Origin: Bacillota bacterium
GTDB lineage: Bacteria > Bacillota > Sulfobacillia > DUSP01 > JBFMCS01
Direction of reading: 5' to 3'
DNA: 64,000 nucleotides
NCBI GenBank assembly: GCA_040754315.1
Contig: JBFMCS010000059.1
Coordinates: 1-64,000, forward strand
Below, piece after piece: positions 14,827 to 34,009 of the stretch (positions within the stretch are counted from its first letter, which is position 1; each line of letters opens with the position of its first letter). The notes below the pieces were generated by a model. That model was not told the origin of the DNA and made no database searches. It worked only from the letters and a program-made list of their open reading frames with translations. Both the position numbers and the translations under genes were made by a program.

Positions 14827-14848
14827 CACTGGGCTGGAGGAGAGGTGC

Positions 14849-16550: not shown

Positions 16551-17264
16551 TCAGCTCCCCCGCCGGCCCAGGCCAACATTCAACTTGGCGCTAGGCTGCA
16601 CAGGAAACCCTTCTTCCTCGGCAATCCGTAGAGCGGGAATGGACCCGTCCTCTTTAAGGCGGGAGATAAGCCCTACGCTGAACACTGTCCTGGTCTCTGT
16701 GGCTAGGCCTTTTAGCAGACTCAGGACGCCCGACAGTTTCTCCACCGGCACTTTAATCTCTATGACAGCGGATAGCACTCTTTCGTCCAAGACCTCCTTC
16801 TGGATAGCACCTGTTGTCCGGTCTTCGAGGAGGAAAGTCACTGGGTTGTCATCACTGAAGAACACTTCTGCATTTGCCAATCGCCTGGTGAAGAGGTCTA
16901 TATCTCGCATTGAGGCTCCAAGCCCAGGACGGCCAATGTCGATCCCGATACCCACCTCTCCGTGGGAAAATCGCCCTGTGACATCGTTGCTCTTCATCTC
17001 CTCAGTTCCCCGCCCCGATACCCCTGTTCTCTCAAACTCCGAGCACACATCGCTAAACAGATTCCTGAGCGACCGAGGCCAGGGAAGGTGGGCTTCGGGC
17101 AAAATGGCTCCTGGTTTGCAGCAAGCTGACCTGAAACAGTTATTGCATTCCACGCATAGATCGGCAGTGACCACAGCTTTCTTGTCAACCATGCGTATAG
17201 CCTGTACTGGGCAAAACACAAGGCATTGCTTGCACCCCGTGCACTGATCTTGGTCTATGAACAT
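16551..17264 (-). CDS. Tandem 4Fe-4S protein with conserved C-terminal domain, copy 1
   Basis: The N-terminal 55 residues are a 2[4Fe-4S] ferredoxin domain: C8, C11, C14, C18 and C37, C40, C43, then C48/C49. The remaining about 180 residues belong to no family I can name. The domain opens with LPWPRSLRNLFSDV and GRGTEEMKSNDVTGR, followed by a glycine-rich GIGIDIGRPGLGA, and ends in an alpha/beta region with GLISRLKEDGSIPALRIAEEEG. A clear paralogue lies at 28518-29219 with the same arrangement. The upstream partner gene ends in TAATG, sharing one base with this start, so the two are translationally coupled. They lie downstream of tctA, so the module probably acts on or senses the compound imported by the TTT transporter. 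The redox role is inferred from the clusters only. Confidence 0.7.
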   Translation of the reverse strand: MFIDQDQCTGCKQCLVFCPVQAIRMVDKKAVVTADLCVECNNCFRSACCKPGAILPEAHLPWPRSLRNLFSDVCSEFERTGVSGRGTEEMKSNDVTGRFSHGEVGIGIDIGRPGLGASMRDIDLFTRRLANAEVFFSDDNPVTFLLEDRTTGAIQKEVLDERVLSAVIEIKVPVEKLSGVLSLLKGLATETRTVFSVGLISRLKEDGSIPALRIAEEEGFPVQPSAKLNVGLGRRGS

Positions 17265-17902
17265 TACTCTTCACGCTCCTTTCCGCCAATGTACCGCGAT
17301 AGGATGTCGGCCGCGCGGTGAGGATTGAAAACGCCGCAGGTGCAGGTCCTGGCTAGGTCTCGCCCTGCTTCCTCCAAGGACAGTCTTCCGCGCGCAACCT
17401 TCTTGGCCAACTCGTGGATTCTCATGGGTGTAACCAGGGCATGCCCGCACATAGTTGCTATGTCCAAGACGGCAGGCTCGGGCAGATCCGCTGTCCTGCC
17501 GAATATACCTAGCGAGACGTTGATCGTGTGCGGTTTAAGCCCAACAGATTTTGCCACCTCCAGCGTTGTGCGGTAATCGCCGCTGACCACTACGGACATC
17601 CCTTGATCGGCTTCCGACAGGTCGCGAAGCACCCTTTCCAATGTCTCGGTATCCGTGAACACAGCCGCCGGATAGGAGCTGTCCCGTATCTCTGCTTCTA
17701 GCTCATCCGCCGTCTTGCCCATGTAGACGCTATCAAAGCCATTTGATAGATTCACAGGACAATGCCGCCGTAGGATCGAGAAGATTTGCCTCAAGCGACA
17801 AGCAGCTCCTTCGCTGTTGAATCTCTGGGCTGCCAAGGCAAAAACTACGTAGTCCCCGGCAAGAGATGTGAACGAGCAGGATCGATGGAGGCTGTGGGTC
17901 AT
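17264..17902 (-). CDS. Conserved partner of the 4Fe-4S protein, copy 1 (unknown family)
   Basis: No named domain recognised. The 212-residue soluble protein shares with its paralogue at 29210-29860 the start MTHSLHR, then GDYVVF, AAQRFNSEGA, GMSVVVSGDY, GLKPHTINVSLGIFG, TMCGHALV and CTCGVFNPHRA. The conserved cysteines (one in MCGH, two in CTC) and histidines could ligate a metal or cluster shared with the neighbouring ferredoxin-domain protein; that is inference. The frame opens at 17944, but ATG 17902 matches the paralogue's start and has GGGAG nine bases upstream. It begins one base after the tctA stop, so it belongs to the TTT operon. Confidence 0.65.
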   Translation of the reverse strand: MTHSLHRSCSFTSLAGDYVVFALAAQRFNSEGAACRLRQIFSILRRHCPVNLSNGFDSVYMGKTADELEAEIRDSSYPAAVFTDTETLERVLRDLSEADQGMSVVVSGDYRTTLEVAKSVGLKPHTINVSLGIFGRTADLPEPAVLDIATMCGHALVTPMRIHELAKKVARGRLSLEEAGRDLARTCTCGVFNPHRAADILSRYIGGKEREE

Positions 17903-17903
17903 C

Positions 17904-19397
17904 CTAAACCGCTCCCTTTCGTCTTTTTGTGGTACAGCCGGCAATAGAAGGCCACAAGAACGACAGTACTGCCAGTAAAAGCAATACGAACGTGATGGGC
18001 CTTGTTACTATCGCGAGTACGTCACCGCCTGCAATGATGAACGCCCTTCGGAAAGACGCTTCGGCAATAGGACCGAGTACATACCCAAGGATGACAGGTG
18101 CTGTAGGAAATCCTGTCCTGCCCATCAGATAACCGATAATCGCAAAGCTAATTACGAACCAGATGCCGTATATGTCGCCAAGGGCGTAGGAGCCAACGAT
18201 GCAGAAAGAAGCTATGACGGTGGCGAGGAAGGGGTAGGGAATACTGAGAATCTTGGCCGCGTACCGGCAGGCAACAAGGCCCACGACAACCATCATGATG
18301 TTGCTCAGCAGCATACCACCAAAAAGTGCATAGACGAGCGGCCGATGTTCCACCATGAGGAGAGGGCCCAAGCGGAGGCCATGGATGAGAAAAGCACCAA
18401 CCATGACAGCCGTTGTGCCGCTTCCAGGTATGCCAAGGCTCAGCAACGGGATCATCGCGCCACCGACTGCAGCGTTGTTTGCGCTTTCAGGAGCTGCAAT
18501 ACCTTCCGCAATCCCGGTGCCAAACCTTTCTGGATGTTTGGAAAGCCTCACTTCTTGGCTGTATCCAATTATAGCGGCGGTAGTCGCCCCAACACCAGGC
18601 AAGATCCCCACCCAGGTTCCTATTATGGCACCCCTCAGGAGAGTCCACCTTAGACTCAGCAGTTCTCTCAATCCTGGAAGTTCGGACCTAATCTTCTCAA
18701 CTGCCGCCGTCTCACGACGGTCTTTGCGATAAGTGGTAATCTGGTTCAGGAGTTCCGTTGCAGCAAACAGCCCAATCATCGAAGAGATAAACGGGATGCC
18801 TCCAATCAGTGCCGTATTGCCAAAGGTAAAACGCAACGCACCAGAAATTGGATCCATGCCCACCGTAGATAGGAATAGCCCGAACAGCCCTGCCACCACC
18901 GCCTTGGTGGGCTGACTTGTTCCGACGGAAGGCATTACTGATAACCCGAGAACACATAGAGCGAAATACTCAGCCGGTCCGAAACGTAATGCAATGCCTG
19001 CCAGGATAGGCGCAAGGAGGATCATCACCATCACGCCGAATAGACCGCCAAAAGCCGAAGAACTAATGGCAATGCCAAGTGCCTTCCCAGCTTGTCCTTT
19101 CTTGGCCATTTCATATCCGTCAAGCGTAGTCATAACTGCTTCCGCAGAACCGGGTATGCGGAAAAGGACCGCGGTGATAGACCCGCCATACGTTCCCGCG
19201 CTGTACAGCGCCACTAGGAAGAGAAGCGCTTGAATAGGTGTCATTATGTATGTCATCGGTATAAGGAGCGCAACGCCCTCCATCGGGCCCACGCCGGGAA
19301 TTGCACCAAATATGACGCCCACAATAGTGCCTACCATGATCATCGCAAGGTTTTCGATGTGGAGGTTAACAAACAAACCGGCGATCAAATCTTCCAC
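17904..19397 (-). CDS. tctA: Tripartite tricarboxylate transporter, large permease TctA
   Basis: Twelve-helix secondary permease of the TTT family, which uses an ion gradient and a periplasm-type binding protein to import carboxylates. The 497-residue hydrophobic protein starts MEDLIAGLFVNL and carries the family segments GAIPGVGPMEGVALLIPMTY near the N-terminus, SYGGSITAVLFRIPGSAEAV-type sequence, and GILPGVGATTAAIIGYSQE with ESANNAAVGGAMIPLLSLGIPGSGTTAVM in the second half. The GTG start is preceded by a modest GGGGTG. Gene order tctC-tctB-tctA, followed by the two-gene Fe-S module, all on the minus strand. Confidence 0.93.
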   Translation of the reverse strand: MEDLIAGLFVNLHIENLAMIMVGTIVGVIFGAIPGVGPMEGVALLIPMTYIMTPIQALLFLVALYSAGTYGGSITAVLFRIPGSAEAVMTTLDGYEMAKKGQAGKALGIAISSSAFGGLFGVMVMILLAPILAGIALRFGPAEYFALCVLGLSVMPSVGTSQPTKAVVAGLFGLFLSTVGMDPISGALRFTFGNTALIGGIPFISSMIGLFAATELLNQITTYRKDRRETAAVEKIRSELPGLRELLSLRWTLLRGAIIGTWVGILPGVGATTAAIIGYSQEVRLSKHPERFGTGIAEGIAAPESANNAAVGGAMIPLLSLGIPGSGTTAVMVGAFLIHGLRLGPLLMVEHRPLVYALFGGMLLSNIMMVVVGLVACRYAAKILSIPYPFLATVIASFCIVGSYALGDIYGIWFVISFAIIGYLMGRTGFPTAPVILGYVLGPIAEASFRRAFIIAGGDVLAIVTRPITFVLLLLAVLSFLWPSIAGCTTKRRKGAV

Positions 19398-19425: not shown

Positions 19426-19923
19426 TCAATAGAAAAGGTGGCTGAATTCACGAAATATGCCTGTCCCCCTTGGGAGAGGGAGGGCCATTACTCTGACGAA
19501 AAGGATAAACAGCACAGAAGTCAAAACGAAAGGCACAACTAGGTTGCGCCACGAAACTTGCCTCTCCAAAATGTAGAGGAATACGGCTTGAAAGATGAGG
19601 CTTGAAATAATAAAGCCTAAATGCTTCATGAGGATTCCGTAGGCCACTAGGCTCAACAAGGCTGGGACCACCCTAGCTCTTATGTTGGCCATCTCCAGAG
19701 ATTGCTTGCCGCTAGGCGTTTCTGTGTCCCTTGCATTGTCACGCTTTCTAAGGCAGCCTATGATGTGAAACATGGTTAGCCCGACCAGCAACAGCAGGAC
19801 CATACGAGGCCAGAAGGCACCGCCCAAAGCTTCATGAGCAAAACCCTTGATGTGTTCGGTAAGATAAAGGAAGAAACACCCAAGAGCAAGTATGACGACA
19901 TTGGCCAAGATCTCACTCTTCAC
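19426..19923 (-). CDS. tctB: Tripartite tricarboxylate transporter, small permease TctB
   Basis: Four-helix accessory membrane subunit of the TTT transporter. The 165 residues hold four hydrophobic segments: about 7-25, 40-58, 85-102 with 105-122, and 130-150. This is the normal TctB topology and length. The GTG start has AGGGGGG seven bases upstream. Sequence conservation in this family is low, so the call rests on topology, size and position between tctC and tctA. Confidence 0.88.
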   Translation of the reverse strand: MKSEILANVVILALGCFFLYLTEHIKGFAHEALGGAFWPRMVLLLLVGLTMFHIIGCLRKRDNARDTETPSGKQSLEMANIRARVVPALLSLVAYGILMKHLGFIISSLIFQAVFLYILERQVSWRNLVVPFVLTSVLFILFVRVMALPLPRGTGIFREFSHLFY

Positions 19924-19990: not shown

Positions 19991-20998
19991 TCAATCTATG
20001 TACCCCAGTTCCTTCATAACATCTTCGTATATTTTCGTTTCTCTTGCTAGATCCGCTGCAAAATCCTTGGAACCCAGGTATCCAGGAACCAAGTCGAGCA
20101 ATCTGTCGCGGGCGAACAACTTGTACATCTGCGAATCGAGCGCCTCCGTATATAATCTCTCAAGGTACTCGACGATGTGTTCGGGCGTTCCTTTCTTAAC
20201 AGATAGGGCTCTCCAAAGAAGTGGTGTTTGCTCCCAATTGAAGTCGCCTAGGCTAACGGTATCGGGAAAACGTTCCAGTCTTTCTGTCTTAAACGTGAAG
20301 ATCGGCTGAATACCTCCATCGTCAATAAGAGGGAGCACAACGCTGTACTCTTCATACATGGCATCTATGTGTCCGCCCAAAAGGGCTGCATGCATCTCAC
20401 CAGCGGCTTCGTACGGTACATATTTGAATTTGAAGCCAGCCCACTCGGCTACCATTGCGGCGGACAATTCGTCAGACGACGCAGCTCCGCAACCCCCAAT
20501 GGTGAGAGGGCGTTTTTTTCCCTCAGCAACAAAACTCTCCCACGTGTCAAAGGTCCCGGGTAGTACATGCAGGGCAGCAACGTCAACATGCGCGCGTATT
20601 ATCGGGGTCAAGTCTTCGTGAGTGTACGGGCTGACGTCAACCAACGGGTTACTTAACACTTCGGTGCTGTGGGCGTAAAGCGTGTATCCGTCAGCCGGCT
20701 GCTCCATGACATAGGCCGTGGCCTTGGCCCCGCTAGCTCCAGGCATGTTGATCTCGACCAGCGGCACACCCATTTCTCTTCGTACGTACATGTCAACGGT
20801 GCGCGTAAAGATATCAGTACCTCCCCCTGCCCCCCATCCAATTATGATTTCTACCGTTCGGGAAGGATACTCCTCCTCCCCTACAGCCTCTGGCTCAGGC
20901 TCTGGCTCCACGGCTTGCTGAGCTGCACATCCCATTGCGGCAATCACGATAACCATCCCTATCGGCACAATTCTCACTAGAGATGAATTGATGCGCAC
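19991..20998 (-). CDS. tctC: TTT substrate-binding lipoprotein TctC (Bug family)
   Basis: Extracytoplasmic receptor that delivers a carboxylate-type ligand to TctAB. A lipoprotein signal peptide ends in the lipobox AAMGC (Cys about 24), then a Glu/Pro-rich linker. The Bug fold follows with YPSRTVEIIIGWGAGGGTD, GASGAKATAYVMEQPADGYTL and the C-terminal KELGYID. The 335-residue length is typical. The GTG start has GGGAG eight bases upstream, within the end of the small ORF 21001-21177. The ligand cannot be predicted; Bug receptors bind anything from citrate to amino acids and aromatics. Confidence 0.92.
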   Translation of the reverse strand: MRINSSLVRIVPIGMVIVIAAMGCAAQQAVEPEPEPEAVGEEEYPSRTVEIIIGWGAGGGTDIFTRTVDMYVRREMGVPLVEINMPGASGAKATAYVMEQPADGYTLYAHSTEVLSNPLVDVSPYTHEDLTPIIRAHVDVAALHVLPGTFDTWESFVAEGKKRPLTIGGCGAASSDELSAAMVAEWAGFKFKYVPYEAAGEMHAALLGGHIDAMYEEYSVVLPLIDDGGIQPIFTFKTERLERFPDTVSLGDFNWEQTPLLWRALSVKKGTPEHIVEYLERLYTEALDSQMYKLFARDRLLDLVPGYLGSKDFAADLARETKIYEDVMKELGYID

Positions 20999-22145: not shown

Positions 22146-22874
22146 GTGAGAGATATGGATACCAGGTGGGTACGCGATGTTAACCAAAAGCCCTACATGA
22201 TCGTTGTGGAGAGAATTCAGACGATGATTTCGAAAGGGGTTGTAAAGCCGGGGCATTGCTTACTCTCGGAGCGTATGCTGGTAGAGAAATTAAATGTGAG
22301 CAGAAATTCGGTTAGAGAAGCTTTGAAGGCCTTGGAATGCATGGGCTTGGTCAATATAGTCCCCGGGCAAGGTGCATTTGTTAAAAAGCCAGACTCTGAT
22401 GATTTAAAGATATTGGCAACTATAATGATGATGCAGGAGAAAAACCTGAAAGAAGTCCTTGAGGTACGAAGGATTATTGAAATGGGAGCAATAGAGCTTG
22501 TTTGCAGGGAACGAAGCATGGGAGACTTGGAGGAAATGCGAGAGACTCTCTCTCAGATGGAGAGTGCTACTTCTCTAGAGAAACGATGCGAAGCGGATGT
22601 TGAATTTCACGTCGCAATAGTCAGGTCTACGCATAATGCTCTCTTGTTAAGAATGATGGTGAATTTGGCAGAGGTGCTCAAGGACCAAATGCCGGTTATC
22701 TTAAAGAGCATAGCGGTTTCGTCCGAGAACGTAGTTCGCCTACTCCAAGAGCATCGCCGGATTTATGCCGCAATTGAAGCCGGGCGAGAAGACGTCGCGA
22801 GGGAAGAAATTGCGTGCCATCTCCGTGAACTTGAGAATATGGTAGGTGCACGACAATTTTATGATTATGAGTAA
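22146..22874 (+). CDS. GntR/FadR-family transcriptional regulator (FCD domain)
   Basis: DNA-binding repressor-type protein of the FadR subgroup, usually responding to a small organic acid related to the neighbouring catabolic operon. The winged helix is at about residues 10-75 (LLSERMLVEKLNVSRNSVREALKALECMGLVNIVPGQGAFVKK). An all-helical FCD domain follows with EVRRIIEMGAIELV, FHVAIVRSTHNALL, and a metal-binding-type histidine near EHRRIYAAIEAG and ACHLRELE. At 242 residues the length is normal. It is transcribed away from the tct operon, with about 1 kb between them. Base composition is clearly more AT-rich than the core genes, suggesting import. Start (GTG 22146) is uncertain by a few codons. 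Confidence 0.88.
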   Translation: MRDMDTRWVRDVNQKPYMIVVERIQTMISKGVVKPGHCLLSERMLVEKLNVSRNSVREALKALECMGLVNIVPGQGAFVKKPDSDDLKILATIMMMQEKNLKEVLEVRRIIEMGAIELVCRERSMGDLEEMRETLSQMESATSLEKRCEADVEFHVAIVRSTHNALLLRMMVNLAEVLKDQMPVILKSIAVSSENVVRLLQEHRRIYAAIEAGREDVAREEIACHLRELENMVGARQFYDYE

Positions 22875-22890
22875 ATATGGCAATTCCACT

Positions 22891-23131: not shown

Positions 23132-23132
23132 T

Positions 23133-23223: not shown

Positions 23224-23329
23224 CTGAGAGAATTTCCATTTGGCCAGCTCGGAGCGAAGCGACGAAGGAAAAGGAAAAGGATGACGCATCTCGCGTCATC
23301 CTGTAGGAGTCAAATTGAAAAGAGAATCG

Positions 23330-23757
23330 TTAGGTAGCGGCAGTGAACTTGTTGGAAGTCACCTTTCTGATGGACTCACCTTTCAGTGATATCCTGTATG
23401 AGTTGTGGATGATGCGGTCCATGACGGCATCGGCCAGGGTGGGATCCGGCAGAGTTTCATGCCAGTTTTCGAATGGCAACTGGCTGGCGATGATCAAAGA
23501 TCCCCTGCCACTGCGTTCTTCGATGACGTCTAGAAGATCGTGCCCCTGAGAATCCTTGAAGGGAACAAGGCCCCAGTCGTCCATGACCAGCAGATCATAA
23601 TTGGACATCTGGTGGATCAGGCGTGAATAGGAGCCATCACCCCTGGCGGCGGTCATTTCTGCAAGCAGGTTGGAGACGCGGTAGTACCGGGCGCTGAGCC
23701 CGTGCCGGCAGGCGGCATTGGCGAGGGCACAAGACAAATATGTTTTTCCCTTATGGA
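23330..23757 (-). pseudogene. istB fragment A (IS21 ATPase), 5'-truncated
   Basis: Encodes the C-terminal two thirds of an IstB helper ATPase: GKTYLSCALANAACRHG after Walker A, LLVMDDWGLVPF as Walker B, sensor segment LIIASQLPFENWHETLPDPTLADAVMDR and KGESIRK at the end. The frame enters through KAFHKGKT at the palindromic junction, where the first glycines of the P-loop should be. About 100 N-terminal residues and istA are absent. It is clearly different in sequence from fragment B, so two elements contributed. Confidence 0.8.
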
Positions 23758-24200
23758 AAGCTTTTCATAACGGCAAAACCTTCCTGGCCTGCGCCATTGG
23801 AAACGCAGCCTGCCGCCAGGGCTTCCGCACCCGCTACTACCGTCTCCCGCGGTTGCTTGAGGACCTCGAACTGGCCAGGGCTGATGGCTCCTTCCCCAGA
23901 TTCATCGACCATCTGGCCAGGCTGGAACTACTCATTCTCGATGACCTGGGCCTGGCTCCCCTGACCGGGGCCGAAGCCCGGTTATTGCTTGAAGTGGTCG
24001 ATGAACGCAGTATGCTGCGTTCCACTCTCATATCAAGCCAGCTCCCCGTGGAGAAATGGCATGCGACCCTCGCCGACCCTACTGTCGCTGATGCTATTCT
24101 GGACCGCCTGGTCCATTCCAGCTACAAGATCGCTTTGAAGGGGGAGTCGATGAGAAAGGTGATTCCCGAACAGGCGTCAAATAAATCAAAGGATAGATGA
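23752..24200 (+). pseudogene. istB fragment B (IS21 ATPase), 5'-truncated
   Basis: Second IstB C-terminal portion: KAFHNGKTFLACAIGNAACR, LLILDDLGLAPL, TLISSQLPVEKWHATLADPTVADAILDRL, KGESMRKVIP. It enters from the same junction as fragment A but in the opposite direction, and it likewise lacks the normal P-loop start. Its 3' side is followed by five terminal repeats. Non-functional. Confidence 0.8.
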
Positions 24201-24236
24201 GAGCAAAACCCCGGCATCGCTTCGCTCCGGAAAGGG

Positions 24237-24351
24237 TGGTCGCTTTGCGGCAGAATGGCTGGACGATTTCCTTCGGAACTACTGGCCGATTTCAATCGGA
24301 ACAGGTGGACGATTTGGATCGGAATCGGTGGTCGATTTCATCGGAATACGC
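24237..24351. repeat. Right terminal repeats of the IS21-type chimaera
   Basis: Five contiguous 23-base units starting at 24237, 24260, 24283, 24306 and 24329, each beginning TGG(T/A/C)CG and containing CGG(A/C)A. The outermost is followed by CA at 24351-24352, the expected IS21 terminus. Confidence 0.75.
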
Positions 24352-24352
24352 A

Positions 24353-24422
24353 GGAAGAAATTGCAAAGAGCGAGATCGAATCTCATCTTGGTGAAATTGA
24401 GAGGTTCCTTACGGAGGGGTAG
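24353..24422 (+). pseudogene. Possible C-terminal scrap of a second FCD-family regulator
   Basis: Directly after the IS end, the frame EEIAKSEIESHLGEIERFL followed by TEG and a stop resembles the last helix of FCD-domain GntR regulators (compare EEIACHLRELE in the regulator at 22146). Too short to be sure. It may mark the gene into which the IS21 material inserted. The bases from 24423 to 24521 hold nothing recognisable. Confidence 0.35.
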
Positions 24423-24521
24423 AGCGATACTCAAGGAACCAACGCAGGCATAGCCGGGACGCCGGTGACCCTGACCGGCCCCCTGGGGTTGTTGACTACG
24501 GTTTGGTCGCATTCCGGCACG

Positions 24522-25496
24522 TCAGTATCGGACGATAACTTGTCCGTCCGCTAATATGAGATCACCGTCCAGTTCAATGCTGGCTTCGCCGAACAGGACG
24601 TCATAGTGACCGGCTGCTTCTACGACACCCCCTATGTACGCACTGGTTCCGAAGGCAATATGGACCGTGCCAGCAACGCCTTCGTCAGTCAGCATACTAC
24701 CCTCGAGCTCGCATTTTGGATTCATTCCGATGCCGAGTTCCGCAATATGGTAGATGTTGGGATCTCCGGTCCTGCGAAGGAGTTCCGCAAATTCCGTTGC
24801 TTTGGGACCTCCACTCATGGAAGTGACACGCCCGCTGGATACTTCGATCGTAAACGGTTCGTCAATCAAGCCGATTCCAGGAATACTTGCATCAACTATA
24901 ATCCTTCCGTTTGCAGAGGTCTCTATCGGGGCTATGCTCGCTTCAATGCATGGCCCAGCCGAGATTTCCTTTTCGGTGGGGAACCCCGTGAGAGCCCGAC
25001 CCGTCCTGCCCTCCAGGCTCATGGTTATGTCTGTTCCTAAAGGCGTGCTCACTCTCGCAGTACCAGCCTTAGTAAGCCTGTCTGCCAGATATTCAACCTT
25101 GGGGGCTATGGCCTCGAAGTCTGCTTCAAGGCTGGGACTCATGAGAAGTTCCAGGGTTGCTTCCGGAAGTACAATGAAACGCGTGCCCGAGGCTTGTGCT
25201 TTAAATCTGGCCGAAGTATGGGCTATATTGGTTTTCATGGGGGCAACAACAAGGTCAGCTTGTTTGAACAATGCTGATACGCAATCCGGCAACTCTTCGC
25301 CATGCAATGTTCTCGGCGGAATTACCCCCAGCAATACGTTCTTCGTCAACTGAAACGCTGCGGCAACCAAAGGCTCAGCAACGTCTAGGGTCGAGAAATC
25401 AGCCAGGACCACAACTCTTGTTTCTTCAGATACCCTGCCCAGGAGCCCTACTAATCGGAAAGCCCCTCTGTTTACCAGTGCCCCTCGCACGACCAA
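24522..25496 (-). CDS. M29-type aminopeptidase-like metallohydrolase
   Basis: Resembles the aminopeptidase T / M29 fold, a family that also includes ring-cleaving 2,5-dihydroxypyridine dioxygenase (NicX). The diagnostic region is ELGIGMNPKCELEGSML followed by DEGVAGTVHIAFG, where family members have ELGIGTNP and GTVHIALG; the C-terminus continues with AGHYDVLFGEASIELDGD. At 324 residues it is shorter than classic M29 peptidases (about 410) but similar to the NicX-like group. It lies 21 bases downstream of dctM as the last gene of the sigma-54 operon. It may therefore process the imported compound. Start ambiguous between TTG 25496 and GTG 25490. Confidence 0.7.
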   Translation of the reverse strand: MVVRGALVNRGAFRLVGLLGRVSEETRVVVLADFSTLDVAEPLVAAAFQLTKNVLLGVIPPRTLHGEELPDCVSALFKQADLVVAPMKTNIAHTSARFKAQASGTRFIVLPEATLELLMSPSLEADFEAIAPKVEYLADRLTKAGTARVSTPLGTDITMSLEGRTGRALTGFPTEKEISAGPCIEASIAPIETSANGRIIVDASIPGIGLIDEPFTIEVSSGRVTSMSGGPKATEFAELLRRTGDPNIYHIAELGIGMNPKCELEGSMLTDEGVAGTVHIAFGTSAYIGGVVEAAGHYDVLFGEASIELDGDLILADGQVIVRY

Positions 25497-25517
25497 CCCC
25501 CCGTTCTCAGATTCGCG

Positions 25518-26792
25518 TTACCTAATAAGTAAGTTGGGAAGCCACAAAACAAGCCCGGGGAAGTACGCAATTGTCAGGACCGCCAGGATTAATGCGGCTA
25601 TGAAAGGCAAGGCTTCCCTGGTAAAGGCAACCACATTGATTCTGGCTATCGCAGTCACAATATACATGCATAGCCCGACAGGTGGAGTAATCAGGCCTAT
25701 CATGATCGTTAACACAGTGACTACGCCCAAGTGTATCGGGTCCATCCCCAGAGCAGTTGCTAGCGGCAGTACCACTGGTACAACGATGATTATTGAGGCT
25801 ATTGTCTCAACAAAGAGCCCCATCACAAAGAGTGCCCCAATGATGAAAGCCCTCAAGATAACAGGGTTTGTTGACAAGCCTGTCAAGAGTCCCACGACCA
25901 TTCTCCCGAACTGTTCCCTGACCAGTATCCAGCCAAAGATGGAGGCACTGGCGACGATGAACATAACGACTCCCGATATTACGGCAGCCCTCAGAAACAC
26001 TTGAGGGAGATCCTTCGTAGTCAGTTCCTTGCGTACGAGGACTTCAAGGATCAACGCATACACCACGGCAATCACAGCAGCCTCAGTGGGTGTAAAAACC
26101 CCTCCCATTATCCCTCCCACTATGATCAGGGGAAGCATGAGTTCGAGGGCCGACTCTCGGAGAGCCGAAAAGAGTCTCGAAAGCGAGAACAGAGACCGGC
26201 GTCGATAGCCGCGCCTGAGGGATAACACGTGAACAACTAGCATCATATACAGAGCCATAACTAGACCTGGAATGGCGCCTCCCAAGAAGAGTTTACCGAT
26301 AGAAATCTGCGCTATGGAACCGTATATGACGAAAGGCACACTTGGAGGAATTATGGGACCAAGCGTTGACGAAGCGGCTGTTACAGCTGCACTGAAGGGG
26401 GCATCGTATCCGTCCTCTTTCATGGCAGGTATTAGCATAGACCCCAAACCGGCAGCATCGGCCGTGGCTGAACCCGACATTCCGGCGAATATCATGCTTA
26501 CAACTATGTTGACCTGCGCCAGTCCACCCGGCACGTGACCGATAAGGGCATCCGAAAGACGAACGAGCCGTTTTGTTATGCCACCGGTGCTCATGATTTG
26601 CCCTGCGAGCATGAACAAGGGAGCCGCTATTAACGAAAAAGAATCGGTGCCTGCTATCATTCTCTGGGCCAGTGAGACAACAGGAATACCCTCCACGGAA
26701 AGATAGATCATAGAGGTAATAGCAAGGGCAAAGGATACAGGTACACCCAGGAACAATAGAACGAACAGTCCCAGGACTACGACAGCTAACAT
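25518..26792 (-). CDS. dctM: TRAP transporter large permease (DctM family)
   Basis: Twelve-helix permease that couples sodium gradients to uptake of organic acids presented by a DctP receptor. The 424 residues show the DctM signature FLGVPVSFAL near the N-terminus, SFSLIAAPLFMLAGQIM, GMSGSATADAAGLGSMLIPAMKE and the closing segment GLITPPVGLCMYIVTAIA. The start overlaps the last base of dctQ (26792), so the permease subunits are translationally coupled. Confidence 0.95.
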   Translation of the reverse strand: MLAVVVLGLFVLLFLGVPVSFALAITSMIYLSVEGIPVVSLAQRMIAGTDSFSLIAAPLFMLAGQIMSTGGITKRLVRLSDALIGHVPGGLAQVNIVVSMIFAGMSGSATADAAGLGSMLIPAMKEDGYDAPFSAAVTAASSTLGPIIPPSVPFVIYGSIAQISIGKLFLGGAIPGLVMALYMMLVVHVLSLRRGYRRRSLFSLSRLFSALRESALELMLPLIIVGGIMGGVFTPTEAAVIAVVYALILEVLVRKELTTKDLPQVFLRAAVISGVVMFIVASASIFGWILVREQFGRMVVGLLTGLSTNPVILRAFIIGALFVMGLFVETIASIIIVVPVVLPLATALGMDPIHLGVVTVLTIMIGLITPPVGLCMYIVTAIARINVVAFTREALPFIAALILAVLTIAYFPGLVLWLPNLLIR

Positions 26793-27274
26793 TACGTCCG
26801 ACCTTTCGTACGAGTCTTAGTGATACTCTGCACAACGGAGGCAACCAAGAAGAGTATCATGAGGCCCGCCGATACGGGCAATGAGAGATTGACATAGACT
26901 AGACTGATCCCGAGAGCCGGCGACAAGATATGGACTGACCTCGCCGCTGCACGTATGCTGATTGACACAAGAAAGCACAGAAAGACCGCGATGCCACCGT
27001 CTATGACTGCCATGCAAAAGCGGCGTCGTGGTTCGGAGAGAGAACCGAGAAACATGTCAATGACTATATGCTCACCTTTGTGGAAGGCGAGTGCAGCAGA
27101 CAGAAAGCATACCCATATGAACGAGTAGCGAGCAAGTTCTTCCGTCCAAAAAGGTGGTGCCTGCAAGATGTATCTAAAGACCACTTGTACGAAAACCACA
27201 CTTACAAGCGCCGCCATAATGATGACAAGCACGAATTCTACAGTATGGGCCAGCATGTCGCCTAATCTCTTCAT
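26792..27274 (-). CDS. dctQ: TRAP transporter small permease (DctQ family)
   Basis: Four-helix subunit that pairs with DctM. The signature TEELARYSFIWVCFLSAALAFHKGEHI is present at about residues 55-80 from the chosen start, between the first and second helices. The frame extends to 27340, but ATG 27274 (MKRLGDMLAHTV) gives 160 residues, a usual length, and has GGTGGGA seven bases upstream. Part of dctP-dctQ-dctM. Confidence 0.9.
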   Translation of the reverse strand: MKRLGDMLAHTVEFVLVIIMAALVSVVFVQVVFRYILQAPPFWTEELARYSFIWVCFLSAALAFHKGEHIVIDMFLGSLSEPRRRFCMAVIDGGIAVFLCFLVSISIRAAARSVHILSPALGISLVYVNLSLPVSAGLMILFLVASVVQSITKTRTKGRT

Positions 27275-27418
27275 GTTCCATCCCACCATCTTGAACTGTC
27301 CCACATGCCATCCTGCAACTTCCAGGCTATCCGACAACACGCTTGAGAGCGGAGACTGCCCTGCCCTAACCTCGGAATCGGACGACTGCGCCCGGGCCCC
27401 CTATCCGTTTCCGTAAGC

Positions 27419-28483
27419 TCAGCTTCCTGACTCCACGATACGCTCATATAAACCGGGCAACCACTTGTCAGCAAACTTGCTGGGCACATCTTTCACAGCT
27501 TCCTGGAAGGCCGAGATTTCGTCATGACCCAGTTCCACAACGTTCATTCCTGCCTCAGCCAGTTTGTTGATATAATCTCTTTCCTGCTCCTCAGTCAGTT
27601 GATCCCCATAAGTCAGAGCGTCTCTGGCCGCAGACGTTATTATGTTTCTGTCCTCTTCATCGATCTCTTTCCAAAACAGTTCGCTGATCAACAGCCACTG
27701 TACCTCCCGTACGTGTCCGGTCAGCATGAGATTGTCCTGGACCTCTTGGAAGCTGTTTCCATAAGTAACTTCCACCGGGTTCTCCTGTGCGTCTACGGTT
27801 CCCATTTGTAGCGCGGTATAGAGTTCTCCAAATGCCATAGGAACAGGGCTTGCGCCTAGAGCCCGCCATGCTTCCACTTGAACGGGGATCTCTCTTATCC
27901 TAATCTTCAATCCCTTTAGGTCCGCAGGTTGCCTTACTACTCTTGCCCCTTTAGTTGTCAAGTGTCTTGGCGCGCGATCCATGAAACCCAGCACTCTGAT
28001 GCCTTTCCGGTCCAAGATCTTCTCAGTCAGTTCCTGTCCAACAGGGCCGGATACAACGCTGCGAAGGTGCTCCTGACTCGCAAACAGATACGGCATATCC
28101 AATGCCCCGTATTCGGGTGCTACTGCAGCAATCAAGGCTGACCCGGACAAACCCATCTGCACGGCGCCAGACTCCATCAACTCATACATTTGCCGTTCGC
28201 TGCCAAGTTCTCCGGTGTGGTACACCTCGACCTGAATACGACCGTTTGATTTAGCCTCAACCATCTCGGCAAAACGCTCCAAAGTTGCGGCTACTGGTGT
28301 CCCGGCCCCCATTTCGTGGTTGACATGGATCACGTGTTCCTTCTTTTCCGCAGGCAAAGCCTCCTCTCCTTCTTCCGGAGCCGTCTCTTGCGTGATTGCA
28401 CATCCCGACAACAATACTCCAAGCACAAGCAAGAGTACTACAGCAAATCTGCCAGACCTCAACGTCTTTTCCCCCCTGAACAT
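27419..28483 (-). CDS. dctP: TRAP substrate-binding lipoprotein (DctP family)
   Basis: Extracytoplasmic solute receptor for the TRAP permease. A lipobox LLSGC at about residue 28 is followed by an acidic linker, then the DctP fold with GTPVAATLERFAEMVEAKSNGRIQVEVYHTGELGSERQ. The ligand-contact region is KGLKIRIREIPVQVEAWRALGASPVPMAFGELYTALQMGTVDAQENP; the arginine in KIRI usually salt-bridges a carboxylate. That suggests an organic-acid ligand, although the operon also contains a ureohydrolase. The gene is 34 bases downstream of the 4Fe-4S gene and has its own ribosome-binding site. Confidence 0.94.
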   Translation of the reverse strand: MFRGEKTLRSGRFAVVLLLVLGVLLSGCAITQETAPEEGEEALPAEKKEHVIHVNHEMGAGTPVAATLERFAEMVEAKSNGRIQVEVYHTGELGSERQMYELMESGAVQMGLSGSALIAAVAPEYGALDMPYLFASQEHLRSVVSGPVGQELTEKILDRKGIRVLGFMDRAPRHLTTKGARVVRQPADLKGLKIRIREIPVQVEAWRALGASPVPMAFGELYTALQMGTVDAQENPVEVTYGNSFQEVQDNLMLTGHVREVQWLLISELFWKEIDEEDRNIITSAARDALTYGDQLTEEQERDYINKLAEAGMNVVELGHDEISAFQEAVKDVPSKFADKWLPGLYERIVESGS

Positions 28484-28517
28484 GGTCCCTTACCCCCTTT
28501 TCCTGATCTTTTCTGTG

Positions 28518-29219
28518 CTATCTCCCCATGCCTACGTTGGTCTTGCCATTGGGCGCCACCGACATCCCCGCGGACTCCAGGTGCCTCCTGGCGGGGATGT
28601 CCCCGTCAACAACCCTGGAGATGACCCCCACGCTGAACACGGTGTCTACCTCGCCCTCAACCGCCTTCAGCGCCTGCACCACCTCAACGACCTTCTCCAC
28701 GGGTATGGTGAACTCAATGATCCCTGATACCACTCGCTCGTCCAGGACCTCCTTCATCAGGGCCCCCATACTCTTTGACTCCATGAGATAGCTGACTGGG
28801 TTCAAGGTCTCGAACTCCACCCCCAACAGCGCTATCGCCCTGGCCAAGGTGTCGATGTCCCGCAGGCGGCACCCAACGTTGGGGCGGCCCACGTCAACGC
28901 ACACACCCACCCAACCTGGCTTGTACCTCTCAGTAACATCGTTTGTCTTCATTTCCTCGGTCCCACGCCCTGTGACCCCCGTGGCTTCGAACTCCGTGAG
29001 GGGATCCGAGAATATGCTCCTTATTGAACGAGGCCAAGGGAGTTCCGGAGGCACCACGAAGGCATCCTCCAAGCACACCCCCAACCTGGCACAAACCCCA
29101 CATTCTGCACAAAGGTCCTGGTCAACCTTGGCGGTCTCACCCTCTAGCGATATCGCCCTCATGGGGCAATACTTGAGGCACTCGCCACATCCCACACAGG
29201 ATCTCTCGTCTATGAGCAC
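28518..29219 (-). CDS. Tandem 4Fe-4S protein with conserved C-terminal domain, copy 2
   Basis: Paralogue of the protein at 16551-17264. The ferredoxin domain has C8, C11, C14, C18 and C37, C40, C43 with C49 (CVGCGECLKYCP, CAECGVC). The unclassified C-terminal domain repeats LPWPRSIRSIFSDP, TGVTGRGTEEMKTNDVTER, VDVGRPNVGCRLRDID and VFSVGVISRVVDGD. The frame is open to 29288, but GTG 29219 aligns with copy 1 and has GGAGG eight bases upstream; it overlaps the partner gene by 10 bases. Sequence is GC-rich like the core genome, unlike copy 1. It stands between the U32-like/ureohydrolase genes and the TRAP genes. Confidence 0.75.
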   Translation of the reverse strand: MLIDERSCVGCGECLKYCPMRAISLEGETAKVDQDLCAECGVCARLGVCLEDAFVVPPELPWPRSIRSIFSDPLTEFEATGVTGRGTEEMKTNDVTERYKPGWVGVCVDVGRPNVGCRLRDIDTLARAIALLGVEFETLNPVSYLMESKSMGALMKEVLDERVVSGIIEFTIPVEKVVEVVQALKAVEGEVDTVFSVGVISRVVDGDIPARRHLESAGMSVAPNGKTNVGMGR

Positions 29220-29860
29220 TCTCGGTTCCTCCCCACGCACTCCTGGCTGATTATGGATTCGGCGCGATCCGGGTTGAACATGGCACATGTGCAGGGCTTG
29301 GCTAGGTCACGAGCCGCCTCGCCAGCAGTCATCTTGCTCTTTCGGACCAGGTCCATCACGTGTTCCACGTGGTCGGGACATACCATAGAGTGACCACACA
29401 TGGTGGTTATCTGAAGTACTGGCTCCCGCGGCAGGAGTTCTCTCTTCCCGAAGATCCCCAGGGACATGTTGATGGTGTGCGGCTCCAGACCAGCACTCCT
29501 TACCACCTCAAACACCTCCTGGAAGTCCCCGGTGACTACCACCGACATGCCGGTATCCAGTTCCTTCAGCTTCACGAGCACGGCCTTCACCTGATCCAGC
29601 GATGTGTATACACCCGCCATGTAGGCCTTGTCCCCTGCCTTTGCCCGGATTTCCTCCAGGGTGAGTCCTGTCAGGATCCCTCCCCGGTTATCGTCCCCGA
29701 CATTGCATGGGGCCCCCGCGGCCAACACATCTAGCATGGCCACGAGTTTACCCGAGGCACCCTCGCTATTTCGCTTCTGGGCGGCCATGCAGAACACTAT
29801 GTAATCCCCGGGCGCCTCTCCCGGACCCCTCTTTCGGTGGAGCGTGTGAGTCATCGACAT
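29210..29860 (-). CDS. Conserved partner of the 4Fe-4S protein, copy 2 (unknown family)
   Basis: Paralogue of 17264-17902 sharing MTHTLHR, GDYIVF, AAQKRNSEGA, GMSVVVTGDF, GLEPHTINMSLGIFG, TMCGHSMV and CTCAMFNPDRA. The invariant Cys-Gly-His and Cys-Thr-Cys motifs suggest metal binding. I choose ATG 29860, five bases after AAGGGG; an internal ATG at 29854 is the alternative and gives the MTHTLHR start exactly as in copy 1. No known domain. Always followed by the 4Fe-4S gene in this window, so the two are likely subunits of one complex. Confidence 0.7.
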   Translation of the reverse strand: MSMTHTLHRKRGPGEAPGDYIVFCMAAQKRNSEGASGKLVAMLDVLAAGAPCNVGDDNRGGILTGLTLEEIRAKAGDKAYMAGVYTSLDQVKAVLVKLKELDTGMSVVVTGDFQEVFEVVRSAGLEPHTINMSLGIFGKRELLPREPVLQITTMCGHSMVCPDHVEHVMDLVRKSKMTAGEAARDLAKPCTCAMFNPDRAESIISQECVGRNRECS

Positions 29861-29870
29861 GAACACCCCT

Positions 29871-30815
29871 TCAAGGCAGTTTCGGAATAGCCAGATCCTC
29901 GGCTCCGGGCTGGGACCACCGTATCTCCGAGTTCATTCCCTGCATTATCTCCAGCATTATGCTGGCGAAGCGAACCTTCTCCCTGACCCGGTGCTCGTTG
30001 AACGCCTGGGTGTTCCAGGGGTGATAGATGTACTCCTCTGACTCCCCCGGCTCGAACTTGAAGTAGCAGGGAGCGCATACCCTGGCCATCTCGTGCGCCT
30101 CATAGTAGCGAACGAACCCACCCATAGACTGGACAATGTGCACGTAAAGGTCCAGGGGCAGGCGCACTGACTGCCTGATGGCTGCTAGCATGGGAATACT
30201 CAGGTCCGCCAGGGGGTTGAAGCTGTTGGCCCCCAGTTCCTCGATGAGGCGAGCCCCAAAGGGATTGGCGTGTCCTGCGAAAACCGACACCTTGAAGATG
30301 GTATCCTGTGGGATAGAACCCTCCTCCCTCAGGCGCTTAAGGAGCCACATCATTCCCTCGTCAGCCACCAGGAACCCCCTGAAGCCTGCGTTCAGGCAAC
30401 GCTCCATGTCCTTCAGGTAGTAGTAGGCGTTGTCCGCCCCCCTGATCCTCATCCCGGACACCAAGCCTTCACTCGTGGCGATCTGCCGGCCAGTGTCCCA
30501 GGATCTGCGAGGCCCTAGCGTCACGATGACCTCTACCCGGGCGCCTGACGCTGCCTGGGCAAGATCCCTCAACTCAGCCTTATCCAGGAACGTAGCACCA
30601 CCCACTGTGGATATAACCCTGTGAACCGGTACGCCCCTGGCATCACTCTCCCGGGCCAGTGCTTCCATGGCCGATGCCCTCTCCACACCCGCGATTTCGA
30701 TGCGGCACTGCCCCCCGTCGGGAAAAGCCAGGGGAGAACTGGGCAGATCGTAGCGGTCCCCTGTGGGGAGGCCCAACCTCGCCAGCGCCCTTGAGATTTC
30801 GTCCACCCGTGTCAC
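29871..30815 (-). CDS. Peptidase-U32-like TIM-barrel protein
   Basis: Resembles the U32 peptidase/hydroxylase barrel: repeated strand motifs such as VEVIVTLGPRRSW, GFRGFLVADEGMMWLL, FKVSVFAGHANPFGARLIEELGAN and LDLYVHIVQSMGGFVRYYE. A VCAPCYFKFE segment near the C-terminus provides two cysteines where U32 proteins bind a cluster or metal. U32 family members act in tRNA and ubiquinone hydroxylation or as collagenases, so a precise role is not given. The start overlaps the ureohydrolase stop by four bases (ATGA-type), showing tight coupling. It may modify the same substrate. Confidence 0.6.
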   Translation of the reverse strand: MTRVDEISRALARLGLPTGDRYDLPSSPLAFPDGGQCRIEIAGVERASAMEALARESDARGVPVHRVISTVGGATFLDKAELRDLAQAASGARVEVIVTLGPRRSWDTGRQIATSEGLVSGMRIRGADNAYYYLKDMERCLNAGFRGFLVADEGMMWLLKRLREEGSIPQDTIFKVSVFAGHANPFGARLIEELGANSFNPLADLSIPMLAAIRQSVRLPLDLYVHIVQSMGGFVRYYEAHEMARVCAPCYFKFEPGESEEYIYHPWNTQAFNEHRVREKVRFASIMLEIMQGMNSEIRWSQPGAEDLAIPKLP

Positions 30816-31747
30816 CTCCCAGAGAAAATAGCTCCTAGAAACTCGATAACCAGGCTGGCAGCGCTCAAGGAGGTCACACCAGCCTGATCGAAAAAGGGGT
30901 TTACCTCTACCAGGTCAAAGCCGACTATCTCGGCCCTCTCGGCCAACCCCGCCAGGAGGGCTCGGAGCTCTTCGTAGGTGAGCCCATTCACCTCGGGTGT
31001 GCCGGTACCTGTAGCCAGCGCAGCGTCGAGCACGTCTATGTCTATGGTGACATAGGTCCGGTGCAGGGATGGGAGCATGTCCAGCGTCGCAGCTACTCCT
31101 TGTGTCTTAACCATGTGGCAGGGCACGAGTACCGCCCCCGAACCCGCGGCACGGGAGTAGTCCTCCTCGCTGGTCCTCAGGCCCCTGATCCCCACGGAGA
31201 CGTGCCGGTCAATCCAGGATATCTCCGATATCCGCCGGACCACGCTCCCGTGCCCGTGGCCTTCCCCCGCCAGTACGTCCCTGTAGTCTAGGTGGGCATC
31301 CAGGTGAACCAGGGATACAGGCCTAAGAGATTCCAGGGCAGAGAACACCGGCCAGCTTATGGAGTGGTCACCCCCTAGCACCACGGGAAACACACCTCGC
31401 TGGATAAGGGTCTTCACACAGCGTGCCGCATTCTCGAAGGTAACCTGGTAGCTTACTGGCACTGCGTCAACATCCCCGCAGTCGACAACCCGGGCACCCT
31501 CCAGGAGCCGCCTCTGGTGCCTGGCGTCCCAGTATCCCAGGCCTGCCCCCAGAAATCCAAACCTTGTGGATATGTCCCTGATAGCCCGCGGGCCAAAGCG
31601 TGCCCCAGGGCGATATCCTGCGCTGGAATCGTAGGGAACACCCAGTATGGCTACATCGGCTTCCCAGTCGCCGTCAACCTCAACCGCGGGAACCTTGGCG
31701 AAGGAAGGGATTCCGAAGAATGTCACGGGCGTCCCGCTGCTATTCAA
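30812..31747 (-). CDS. Ureohydrolase (agmatinase/arginase family)
   Basis: Binuclear manganese enzyme that hydrolyses a guanidino group to urea. All ligand motifs are present: GGDHSISWPV, DAHLDYRD, HGHGSVVRR and DIDVLDAALATGTGTPEVNGL. The 311-residue length fits agmatinase, guanidinobutyrase and formiminoglutamase alike, and I cannot choose among them. First gene of the operon, 54 bases downstream of a sigma-54 promoter. The position with transporter, M29-like and redox genes suggests catabolism of a guanidino or related amide compound. Its stop overlaps the U32-like gene. Confidence 0.88.
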   Translation of the reverse strand: MNSSGTPVTFFGIPSFAKVPAVEVDGDWEADVAILGVPYDSSAGYRPGARFGPRAIRDISTRFGFLGAGLGYWDARHQRRLLEGARVVDCGDVDAVPVSYQVTFENAARCVKTLIQRGVFPVVLGGDHSISWPVFSALESLRPVSLVHLDAHLDYRDVLAGEGHGHGSVVRRISEISWIDRHVSVGIRGLRTSEEDYSRAAGSGAVLVPCHMVKTQGVAATLDMLPSLHRTYVTIDIDVLDAALATGTGTPEVNGLTYEELRALLAGLAERAEIVGFDLVEVNPFFDQAGVTSLSAASLVIEFLGAIFSGR

Positions 31748-31800
31748 GTGGCCTTACTCCCCTTTCGTTTTCCGTTGAAACCCCGGCCAGATCTTCTTGC

Positions 31801-31816
31801 AGCAAGTTGCATGCCA
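31801..31816 (-). promoter_or_regulatory. Sigma-54 (-24/-12) promoter of the ureohydrolase-TRAP operon
   Basis: Minus strand reads TGGCAT, five bases, TTGCT: GG at -24 and GC at -12 with exact spacing, one mismatch to TGGCAC-N5-TTGC. It lies about 54 bases before the ureohydrolase start. The next gene upstream encodes a sigma-54 activator, which supports the call. Confidence 0.82.
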
Positions 31817-31992
31817 TGAGTTCTGGGCCACAGAGGCTGCATCACAGACCATGCGGATGCTGGGGTTGTTCTTTTCGAGACTGGCCGAGGGCAGAAAGGA
31901 TGAAAGAAAGAGATTTGCAGTTTGCCAACAGTGATTTGAACGCGGTGGCTTCCCGTATGACCATAGCAGCAGCTTAGTACGTATTCGCACAT

Positions 31993-32018
31993 CGCCAAGC
32001 ACATTGGCGTTACGCCAA
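31993..32018. promoter_or_regulatory. Overlapping palindromes, candidate enhancer sites
   Basis: CGCCAA-GCACA-TTGGCG (31993-32009) overlaps TTGGCG-TTA-CGCCAA (32004-32018). They lie about 190 bases upstream of the sigma-54 promoter and right after the activator's stop codon, the usual distance for an upstream activator sequence. Alternatively the sequence forms a terminator stem for the activator gene, but it has no T run. Confidence 0.5.
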
Positions 32019-33785
32019 CTACCCTTCCAGGCGCTTCAGCTTGCGGTACAGGGTGGACAGGTCAATGCCCAGGGCTTCAGCGGCCTTGCGTTTCCCTGCG
32101 AGGTCATTTCCGTAGGTATCGAGAGCCGCGACTATCATCCTGGCCTCCATTTGCCTGAGCGTCACCGGGCCCTGGCCTGGAAGCCTAGCCTTGCTCTCCT
32201 CTTGGATCAATCGAGAGGGCAGGCTAGCCCTGGACACCTTGGAGCCCGGCTCAACATTGACAGCATACTCGATGGTGTTCTCTAGCTCCCTCACGTTTCC
32301 GGGCCATGAGTGTTGCCGGAATATCCTCCATACCTCTTCCGATAATCCAGAGACATCCTTGCCGAAGACCGAGTTGTACTTCTGCAGGAGGTGATCAACC
32401 AGGAACTCCAGGTCGCCCCCGCGTTCCCGGAGAGGCGGGATCCGGATAGGCACCACAGCTATCCTGTAGTACAGGTCCTCCCGGAACTCTCCCCTTCTGA
32501 CCATCTCTTCGAGGTCTTGGTTGGTGGCGGCCAGGATACGCAGATCTATGCGGGTACTCTCAGTGGCTCCGATCCTGGTTACCGCCTTCTCTTCCAGGAC
32601 CCTGAGGAGCTTAGCCTGCAGGTGGAGCCTAAGGTCGCCGATCTCGTCCAGGAATATGGTGCCGCTGTTGGCCAGTTCGAACTTACCCGGTTTGCCCCGT
32701 CTCCTTGCCCCGGTAAAAGCACCCTCCTCGTATCCAAAGAGCTCGCTCTCCATCAGGCTCTCAGGGATTGCAGCGCAGTTCACGGCTATGAAGGGGCCGT
32801 CCCGGAATTCGCTCTCGCTGTGAATGGCCCTGGCGAAAAGGTCTTTCCCTGTCCCGCTCTCTCCCTTGAGCAGTACTGTCGAATCACTCCTGGCAAACCT
32901 GCGAGCTAGCGAGATTGCGTCCTGCAGGGCCTTGCTCACCCCGACCAGGTCGGAAAAACGCACTCTTCGCTGAGGGCTGGTCATCCTGTGGACCAGGTTA
33001 CGTACCTCACTGATATCCTTGAAGGTGATGACTGCCCCCAGGGCCGAACCTGACAGGAATAGGGGCTCAGCCGTTGTGAGTATGCGCAGGCGCTTCCCTC
33101 TTACCTCGCAAAGGATTTCCCGCTCGGAGTACCCCTTACGGCTCTCTATCACCCTGAGTATGTTGCTGTCCGGCATGATTTTACCCAGACCGGCGCCAAC
33201 TACTTCACCGGCACGGATGCCCAGTATCCTCTCGGCTGAGCGGCTGAACTCGACAACGGTCCCCTGGGCATCAACGGCGATTATCCCTTCGTGAACGGAG
33301 TTTATGATTGCCCTTACCTGGTTCATCAGGAAGTGGGATCTGTCAAGGAGCCTCTGTACTGCTATCTTGCCGGAGATCAGTTCTGCCATCTTTGAGAGGA
33401 AATCCGCATGTGAAGACTTCTTCCTCAGCAGTGCGTCCCTCTGGGTGTCTGTGAAAGCCGTTATGCTGATGGTTCCCACAGCCTTGTCTTCATAGGCAAT
33501 AGGACAGTTGAGTGAGGCCTTTTCGGGGCAATTGCCCCACAGTTCGCAGGGCCTGCAGAGGGGGTGGTGGCCCGGAGTCTCATTAATCACAGGCTTCATG
33601 GCCCTCATGGTTTCCCTCACTATGTGACCCCTCACCGGTCTCCCCTTGGGATTGTGGCCTGTGCCGCCCGTGGCAGCGACAACCTTCAGGTCCTCATCAT
33701 ATATGATAATCTCCAGGTCAATGACGGAAGCCATGGCCTCGGCCACGCGTTCAACGTCCGGCTGGATGCAGTCGAGAATGGACAA
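32019..33785 (-). CDS. Sigma-54-dependent transcriptional activator (PAS-AAA-FIS)
   Basis: Enhancer-binding protein that opens sigma-54 promoters by ATP hydrolysis. The N-terminal sensor has an unusual Cys-rich stretch (HHPLCRPCELWGNCPEKASLNCP, about residues 73-95), as in the PrdR/sugar-diacid-type N-terminal domains. It is followed by a PAS domain (about 155-255). The AAA+ core has GESGTGKD (Walker A), the sigma-54 contact loop as EEGAFTGARRRG and FLDEIGDL (Walker B). The C-terminal FIS-type helix-turn-helix is AAEALGIDLSTLYRKLKRL. The TTG start has GGAGG eight bases upstream. The four cysteines could sense redox state or bind a metal. The bases 33786-34009 show no gene. Confidence 0.92.
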   Translation of the reverse strand: MSILDCIQPDVERVAEAMASVIDLEIIIYDEDLKVVAATGGTGHNPKGRPVRGHIVRETMRAMKPVINETPGHHPLCRPCELWGNCPEKASLNCPIAYEDKAVGTISITAFTDTQRDALLRKKSSHADFLSKMAELISGKIAVQRLLDRSHFLMNQVRAIINSVHEGIIAVDAQGTVVEFSRSAERILGIRAGEVVGAGLGKIMPDSNILRVIESRKGYSEREILCEVRGKRLRILTTAEPLFLSGSALGAVITFKDISEVRNLVHRMTSPQRRVRFSDLVGVSKALQDAISLARRFARSDSTVLLKGESGTGKDLFARAIHSESEFRDGPFIAVNCAAIPESLMESELFGYEEGAFTGARRRGKPGKFELANSGTIFLDEIGDLRLHLQAKLLRVLEEKAVTRIGATESTRIDLRILAATNQDLEEMVRRGEFREDLYYRIAVVPIRIPPLRERGGDLEFLVDHLLQKYNSVFGKDVSGLSEEVWRIFRQHSWPGNVRELENTIEYAVNVEPGSKVSRASLPSRLIQEESKARLPGQGPVTLRQMEARMIVAALDTYGNDLAGKRKAAEALGIDLSTLYRKLKRLEG

Positions 33786-34009
33786 TGAGGACTCCTCCCC
33801 TCACCCGTTACCAGGACTGCGCCCCGGCGCTTGGTACTTCTCCCTCTGCCTGAGGGAAACCTGCTAGAACCTGCCTAGAGCAGCAAGGGGGCCTCCCCTC
33901 CCTAGGCAAAATCTCGCCGAACAGCCATGAGCGTACCAGTCTACCTAGGGTTTGACTGGAGGAAGGCGGTAATGCCCAGGTCATTGCGGGGGAAAACGAG
34001 GCGTCAGGG

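Follow-up and report, generated by a model that had tools for sequence, protein, structure and literature searches.

Two adjacent genes, here termed A and B, form a real, widespread and unnamed module that is present twice in the window, i.e. the whole 64,000-nt stretch of DNA analysed, on which feature coordinates are given. No Pfam or NCBIfam model covers the pair, which is probably carried by hundreds of anaerobic genomes, and no description of it was found in the open-access literature (the library searches cover Pfam, NCBIfam and PDB). We tentatively hypothesize that A and B constitute a two-subunit Fe-S oxidoreductase in the anaerobic catabolism of carboxylates that enter the cell chiefly through TTT transporters, a reading that we hold with slightly less than even confidence. 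Provided that A-B is an enzyme, current reconstructions of the use of TTT-imported organic acids by fermenters, syntrophs and sulfate reducers lack a redox step. Conserved operons, a sigma-54 promoter-like site and cultured hosts (Anaerospora hongkongensis, Halanaerobium) make the question open to experiment.

The two gene pairs and their proteins

Both copies are encoded on the minus strand. Copy 1 (16551-17902) is located behind tctCBA and consists of A (17264..17902, ATG start, 212 aa) and B (16551..17264, 237 aa), which overlap by 1 nt. Copy 2 (28518-29860) is located between ureohydrolase/U32-like genes and dctPQM. Here A is an unclassified protein of 216 aa (29210..29860, ATG start; residues are numbered on a 218-aa ORF), with a second ATG at 29854 matching the start position of homologues. 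Copy-2 B (28518..29219, 233 aa) comprises a 2[4Fe-4S] ferredoxin domain and an unclassified C-domain with the motifs TGRGTEEMKTND... K-x-N-x-G-x-G. Its GTG start at 29219, aligned with homologues, overlaps the stop of A by 10 nt; the ATG at 29288 is merely the start of the longest ORF. The first-pass annotation had described a pair with overlapping starts, present twice and each time beside a different tripartite transporter, and all of this was confirmed. Between the copies, sequence identity is 44% for A and 51% for B, and a search with A in 299 Bacillota genomes displayed these two pairs and no more in the window's own genome.

The first 60 residues of B were identified as a 2[4Fe-4S] ferredoxin (Fer4 clan) by Pfam Fer4 families, PDB sequence search and Foldseek. 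Each window protein has a CxxCxxCx3C and a CxxCxxCx5C motif, both complete with four cysteines. None of the eight cluster cysteines varies among 89 homologues, and E91, K93, G113-R114-P115, G154, K228 and G234 are likewise invariant; the assignment of B as a 2[4Fe-4S] protein therefore stands. Both cluster motifs are shared with bacterial ferredoxins and polyferredoxins (FwdF, RnfB, clostridial ferredoxin), which, however, have no counterpart of the 165-residue C-domain. Taking a score above the curated cut-off (Pfam-A, NCBIfam) as family membership, no Pfam family was found for this C-domain in the 55 members scanned, apart from scattered weak matches, and no NCBIfam family covers it in the two window proteins. 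Against PDB sequences a single weak match (E 0.005) was obtained; it is local, and glycerate kinase was rejected as an assignment.

For A, nothing significant was found in Pfam or NCBIfam (96 members scanned) or by PDB profile search. SHOCT-like matches in 12 A proteins were weak and local, and were discarded. The AlphaFold2 models are of high confidence for A (pLDDT 90.8, pTM 0.87) and for B (pLDDT 91.5, pTM 0.89). With Foldseek, the A model matched no PDB structure at E <= 0.001 (best E 0.031); its weak matches, all at E > 0.03, are small ferredoxin-like ligand-binding folds (PII-like SbtB, CutA1, TM1266). The B model was matched through its ferredoxin part alone, and viral structures gave no match. 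Homology between A and B was likewise rejected (profile-profile probability 3%). The first-pass annotation had called A unnamed and the C-terminal domain of B unclassified, and these profile and structure searches agree.

In 96 homologues of A, H7, H10, R11, H130, C157, G158, H159, C192 and C194 are invariant or nearly so, and G106, G113, G140 and N198 are also invariant. Of the motifs that the first-pass annotation had considered invariant in A, MTHxLHR, MCGH and CxC hold to this extent, whereas NSEGA and PHTIN do not, except for N33 (92/96) and H130. On sequence grounds, the conserved Cys/His residues resemble a site for a metal or a cluster.

Known enzymes were also compared. Neither A nor B contains a Pfam domain of the 2-hydroxyacyl-CoA dehydratase activator (archerase, an ASKHA-type ATPase with a [4Fe-4S] cluster at the dimer interface), or a Pfam match to Ni-CODH (Prismane/CODH fold, C-cluster ligands). 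The tungstopterin domains AFOR_N and AFOR_C of aldehyde:ferredoxin oxidoreductase (AOR) are absent from both proteins (Pfam) and occur in a separate gene neighbouring the pair. PrdA/PrdB and GrdA-E of proline and glycine reductase gave no NCBIfam match in either protein.

Pairing, gene order and distribution

B adjoins A in 149 of 154 A genes at 119 loci. Three of the five exceptions lie near a contig end or run off it; another, in Bathyarchaeota (L081), is flanked by N-masked DNA in which the tail of B can still be recognised (...TNVGLG), and the fifth is a 121-aa fragment. Some of the 119 loci overlap one another, and 131 distinct pairs remain once duplicates are removed; one genome scan confirmed 216 relatives, of which 78 loci were kept. 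Apparent B-less A genes were traced to an antisense ORF shadowing B in gene calling. An apparent B fusion of 485 aa was rejected, because its ORF simply begins before the usual start.

The two genes are closely spaced, with a median of 3 nt, 117 of 123 gaps at <=50 nt, and 32 overlaps. The distance matrices of A and B are correlated at 0.755, as compared to a maximum of 0.066 among 500 permutations. Among 299 Bacillota genomes, A is found in 20 (about 7%) and the C-domain of B in 19 of the same 20, and solely in A-carrying genomes; in the remaining one the locus is cut off by a contig end. Adjacency, shared genomes and correlated distances uphold the earlier proposal of a fixed two-gene unit, and a survey of neighbourhoods, as suggested there, found the genes anything but rarely together.

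In the window's own class, A is present in 22 of 121 genomes. Relatives are found in Bacillota, Desulfobacterota, Chloroflexota, Synergistota, Bathyarchaeota (archaea) and other lineages, with nine pairs in one of the genomes searched. A scan of viral contigs and a plasmid tblastn with A yielded no relatives. The rule that A always precedes B applies to the clade of the window but fails elsewhere: the order is B-A in 142 of 149 cases and A-B in 7. All in A-B order, the two window copies group with L078 and the G281/UBA3570 locus in a single clade supported by an SH-aLRT of 99. At L091:5789-7261, L126:2468-5131 and L092:6529-9362, one operon was observed to hold the pair in tandem array or A genes repeated in direct succession.

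Neighbouring genes and possible functions

The TTT genes of copy 1 encode TctA (17904..19397, minus strand; PF01970 at 18087-19349), TctB (19426..19923, minus strand; homology to TctB clusters) and TctC (19991..20998, minus strand; homology to cluster 1 TctC proteins). An FCD/GntR regulator (22146..22874, plus strand; Pfam) is divergent from this operon. Across 20 genomes, TctA lies within 5 kb of 31 of 50 A genes, where 0.92 would be expected from TctA density; conversely, A lies within 5 kb of 27 of 66 TctA genes. DctM is found near A in 6 of 50 cases against 2.43 expected, and the seven TRAP cases need seven tree changes, so that linkage to TRAP appears sporadic. Hence, the suggested association with TTT or TRAP is retained for TTT only and is not an even rule.

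In co-directional runs of the 131 distinct pairs, partners include TTT (70), GntR (22), 3-hydroxyacid-type dehydrogenase (20), Zn-alcohol dehydrogenase (12), AOR (13) and 2-oxoacid:ferredoxin oxidoreductase (KOR; 3), together with the electron-transfer set of CooF-type ferredoxin (24), FNOR (22) and CODH-like protein (21). Aldolase, FAH and PdxA-type enzymes also neighbour the pair. No recognised operon partner was found for 24 of the 131 pairs, 9 of which are at contig edges. AOR and KOR share an anaerobic, ferredoxin-linked catabolic setting with the pair, but are unrelated in sequence to A and to the C-domain of B.

The association of CooF, FNOR and CODH-like genes (about 21/131) resembles that in Clade G / mini-CooS Ni-CODH clusters (PMC8776680). 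It needs six tree changes for 21 rows, and thus is inherited within clades. Unlike the mini-CooS of Thermosinus, which has a complete metal-cluster motif (PMC8776680), the CODH-like neighbours keep only four N-terminal cysteines at >=60% conservation (16/16 sequences). Since the C-cluster ligands are not conserved, these proteins are probably not CO dehydrogenases, despite their likely annotation as such, and CO metabolism via this partner was rejected. This CODH-like family (422-603 aa), with CooF and FNOR as neighbours, is represented at L049:11244-12515, L050:7555-8823, L075:6198-7715, L077, L149:4452-5933 and other loci.

As judged from gene content, these neighbours favour a redox role that A-B would play in carboxylate catabolism. 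In an oxidoreductase of this kind, the two [4Fe-4S] clusters of B may carry electrons between the ferredoxin pool and A, in either direction. Cys157, His159, Cys192 and Cys194 of A would form an active metal or third cluster site, to which His7, His10 and His130 are probably added, and the C-domain of B might serve as an interface or as part of the substrate pocket. The site of A would then act on an oxo acid, semialdehyde or hydroxy acid derived from the imported carboxylate. Paralogues are proposed to differ in substrate, which would explain how one genome can hold nine. The physical complex of A and B, its catalysis, active site, electron direction and substrate are what we infer; the evidence counted for an oxidoreductase is pairing, tight coupling, co-evolution, the invariant Cys/His residues, operon partners, TctA enrichment and the exchange of the transporter between the window and L078. 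Against it, no sequence or fold match provides A with a known catalytic site, and the 24 pairs with no recognised operon partner also count on this side. The electron-transfer neighbours could also serve other enzymes of those operons, and the widely varying partner enzymes suit a general accessory role as well. A more far-reaching idea, which we regard as possible but rather doubtful, is that A-B represents an Fe-S enzyme class not known before, in which A would have both a novel fold and a novel catalytic site bound by Cys and His, and which would perform a redox step common to many anaerobic carboxylate pathways in bacteria and archaea.

On the other hand, A may be an Fe-S lyase, dehydratase or isomerase, in which a [4Fe-4S] cluster held by three cysteines leaves an open iron site to act as Lewis acid and B merely reduces or re-activates A; with B as reductant, this corresponds to the "reductive activating system" of the first-pass annotation. 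The number of invariant cysteines in A (C157, C192, C194) is that of a site-differentiated cluster, and the aldolase, FAH and PdxA-type neighbours handle hydroxy and oxo acids. However, B lacks any ATPase or archerase-type domain according to Pfam, A matches no known dehydratase, and the enzymes that recur most strongly as partners are of the redox type, which makes such a lyase unlikely. A non-catalytic accessory, maturation or metabolite/redox-sensing module, serving transporters or partner enzymes, appears improbable to a marginally greater degree. The many types of partner enzyme and transporter and the high copy number would suit it, as would the resemblance of A to PII-like and CutA1 folds, were these matches significant. 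The operons already possess dedicated regulators (GntR/FCD, sigma-54 activators), though, and electron-transfer sets recur within them. That A-B is tied to TRAP/TTT import itself, e.g. by energising or gating the permease, would fit the frequency of TctA and TTT near the pair, but is very improbable, as 39 of 66 TctA genes lack an A gene within 5 kb, many pairs adjoin AOR, KOR or CODH-like genes with TTT absent, and TRAP in the window is replaced by TTT in L078 (see below).

The copy-2 operon and its control

The copy-2 operon runs in one direction (31747 to 24522) and encodes ureohydrolase, U32-like protein, A, B, DctP, DctQ, DctM and an M29-like protein, all on the minus strand. Its first gene (30812..31747; Pfam, NCBIfam) belongs to the agmatinase/guanidinobutyrase/guanidinopropionase family of ureohydrolases, and PDB relatives of the protein include guanidinobutyrase and 3-guanidinopropionase. 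The U32-like gene (29871..30815) is directly upstream of A and matches PF01136 at just E=0.078. The TRAP transporter comprises the solute-binding protein DctP (27419..28483; homology to cluster 24 DctP proteins), the small membrane subunit DctQ (26792..27340; homology to cluster 34) and the large membrane subunit DctM (25518..26792; PF06808 at 25551-26774). The last gene (24522..25496) encodes an M29-aminopeptidase-like protein, assigned by cluster 14 homologues (a PF02073 match was obtained for one of them), and is a recurrent neighbour of the pair.

Adjacency of the U32-like gene and A is repeated in L078, L191 and L206; two genomes besides that of L078 show it, G355 and G308, and the run of G355 includes ureohydrolase and tctCBA. 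The U32-like protein itself has no curated family match; it is encoded by 22 of the 121 genomes in the class, only sometimes beside A-B, and in some genomes it adjoins AOR, Ldh2, TTT or 3-hydroxyacid dehydrogenase genes.

A sigma-54 (-24/-12) promoter-like site, TGGCATGCAACTTGCT (31801..31816, minus strand), is located upstream of the ureohydrolase gene. No other site in the window agrees exactly with the sigma-54 consensus applied, and 0.03 such matches would be expected. Further upstream, an activator with PAS, sigma-54-interaction and Fis-type domains is encoded (32019..33785, minus strand; Pfam, NCBIfam). The end of its gene is bordered by the palindrome TTGGCGTTACGCCAA (32004..32018, no strand assigned), a candidate upstream activator site. 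The best NCBIfam match of the activator is PrdR, at 442 bits and thus below the cut-off of 795. A PrdR-like sigma-54 activator and amino-acid-related enzymes are shared with Stickland-type reductases (Prd, Grd), whose NCBIfam models, however, match neither A nor B. Exact sigma-54 matches before A-B operons with a PrdR-like activator are also found at L131:7112-7127, L088:6108-6123 and L096:6094-6109. A scan of 24000-34000 for sigma-70 promoters and terminators displayed sites no commoner than in shuffled sequences.

The same arrangement is found in Clostridiaceae bacterium BRH_c20a (L078), with a match to the promoter consensus at 6041-6056 upstream of the ureohydrolase gene. Identity to the window amounts to 46% for the regulator, 54% for the ureohydrolase, 63% for the U32-like protein and 56% each for A and B. 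Where the window has TRAP, L078 has tctCBA; after these genes come a class III aminotransferase and another pair, whose order is B-A. As the transporter is exchanged and regulator, ureohydrolase, U32-like protein, A and B are kept, the pair belongs with the catabolic genes and not with one transporter. For the copy-2 operon, the likeliest substrate is a guanidino- or amino-carboxylate that would be opened by the ureohydrolase. The ureohydrolase, together with the omega-amino-acid-type aminotransferase of L078, may suggest an omega-guanidino acid, e.g. 4-guanidinobutyrate, which is a guess from family membership.

Two further regions of the window may be mentioned. At 13804-15796, an old-yellow-enzyme-type gene is found with an aldo/keto reductase that carries C-terminal ferredoxin motifs, and L046, L056 and L069 have a reductase of the same type close to A-B. 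Between both modules, at 22890-24200, several short ORFs, to judge by their sequence, resemble IstB-type transposase helper proteins, suggesting a decayed insertion element.
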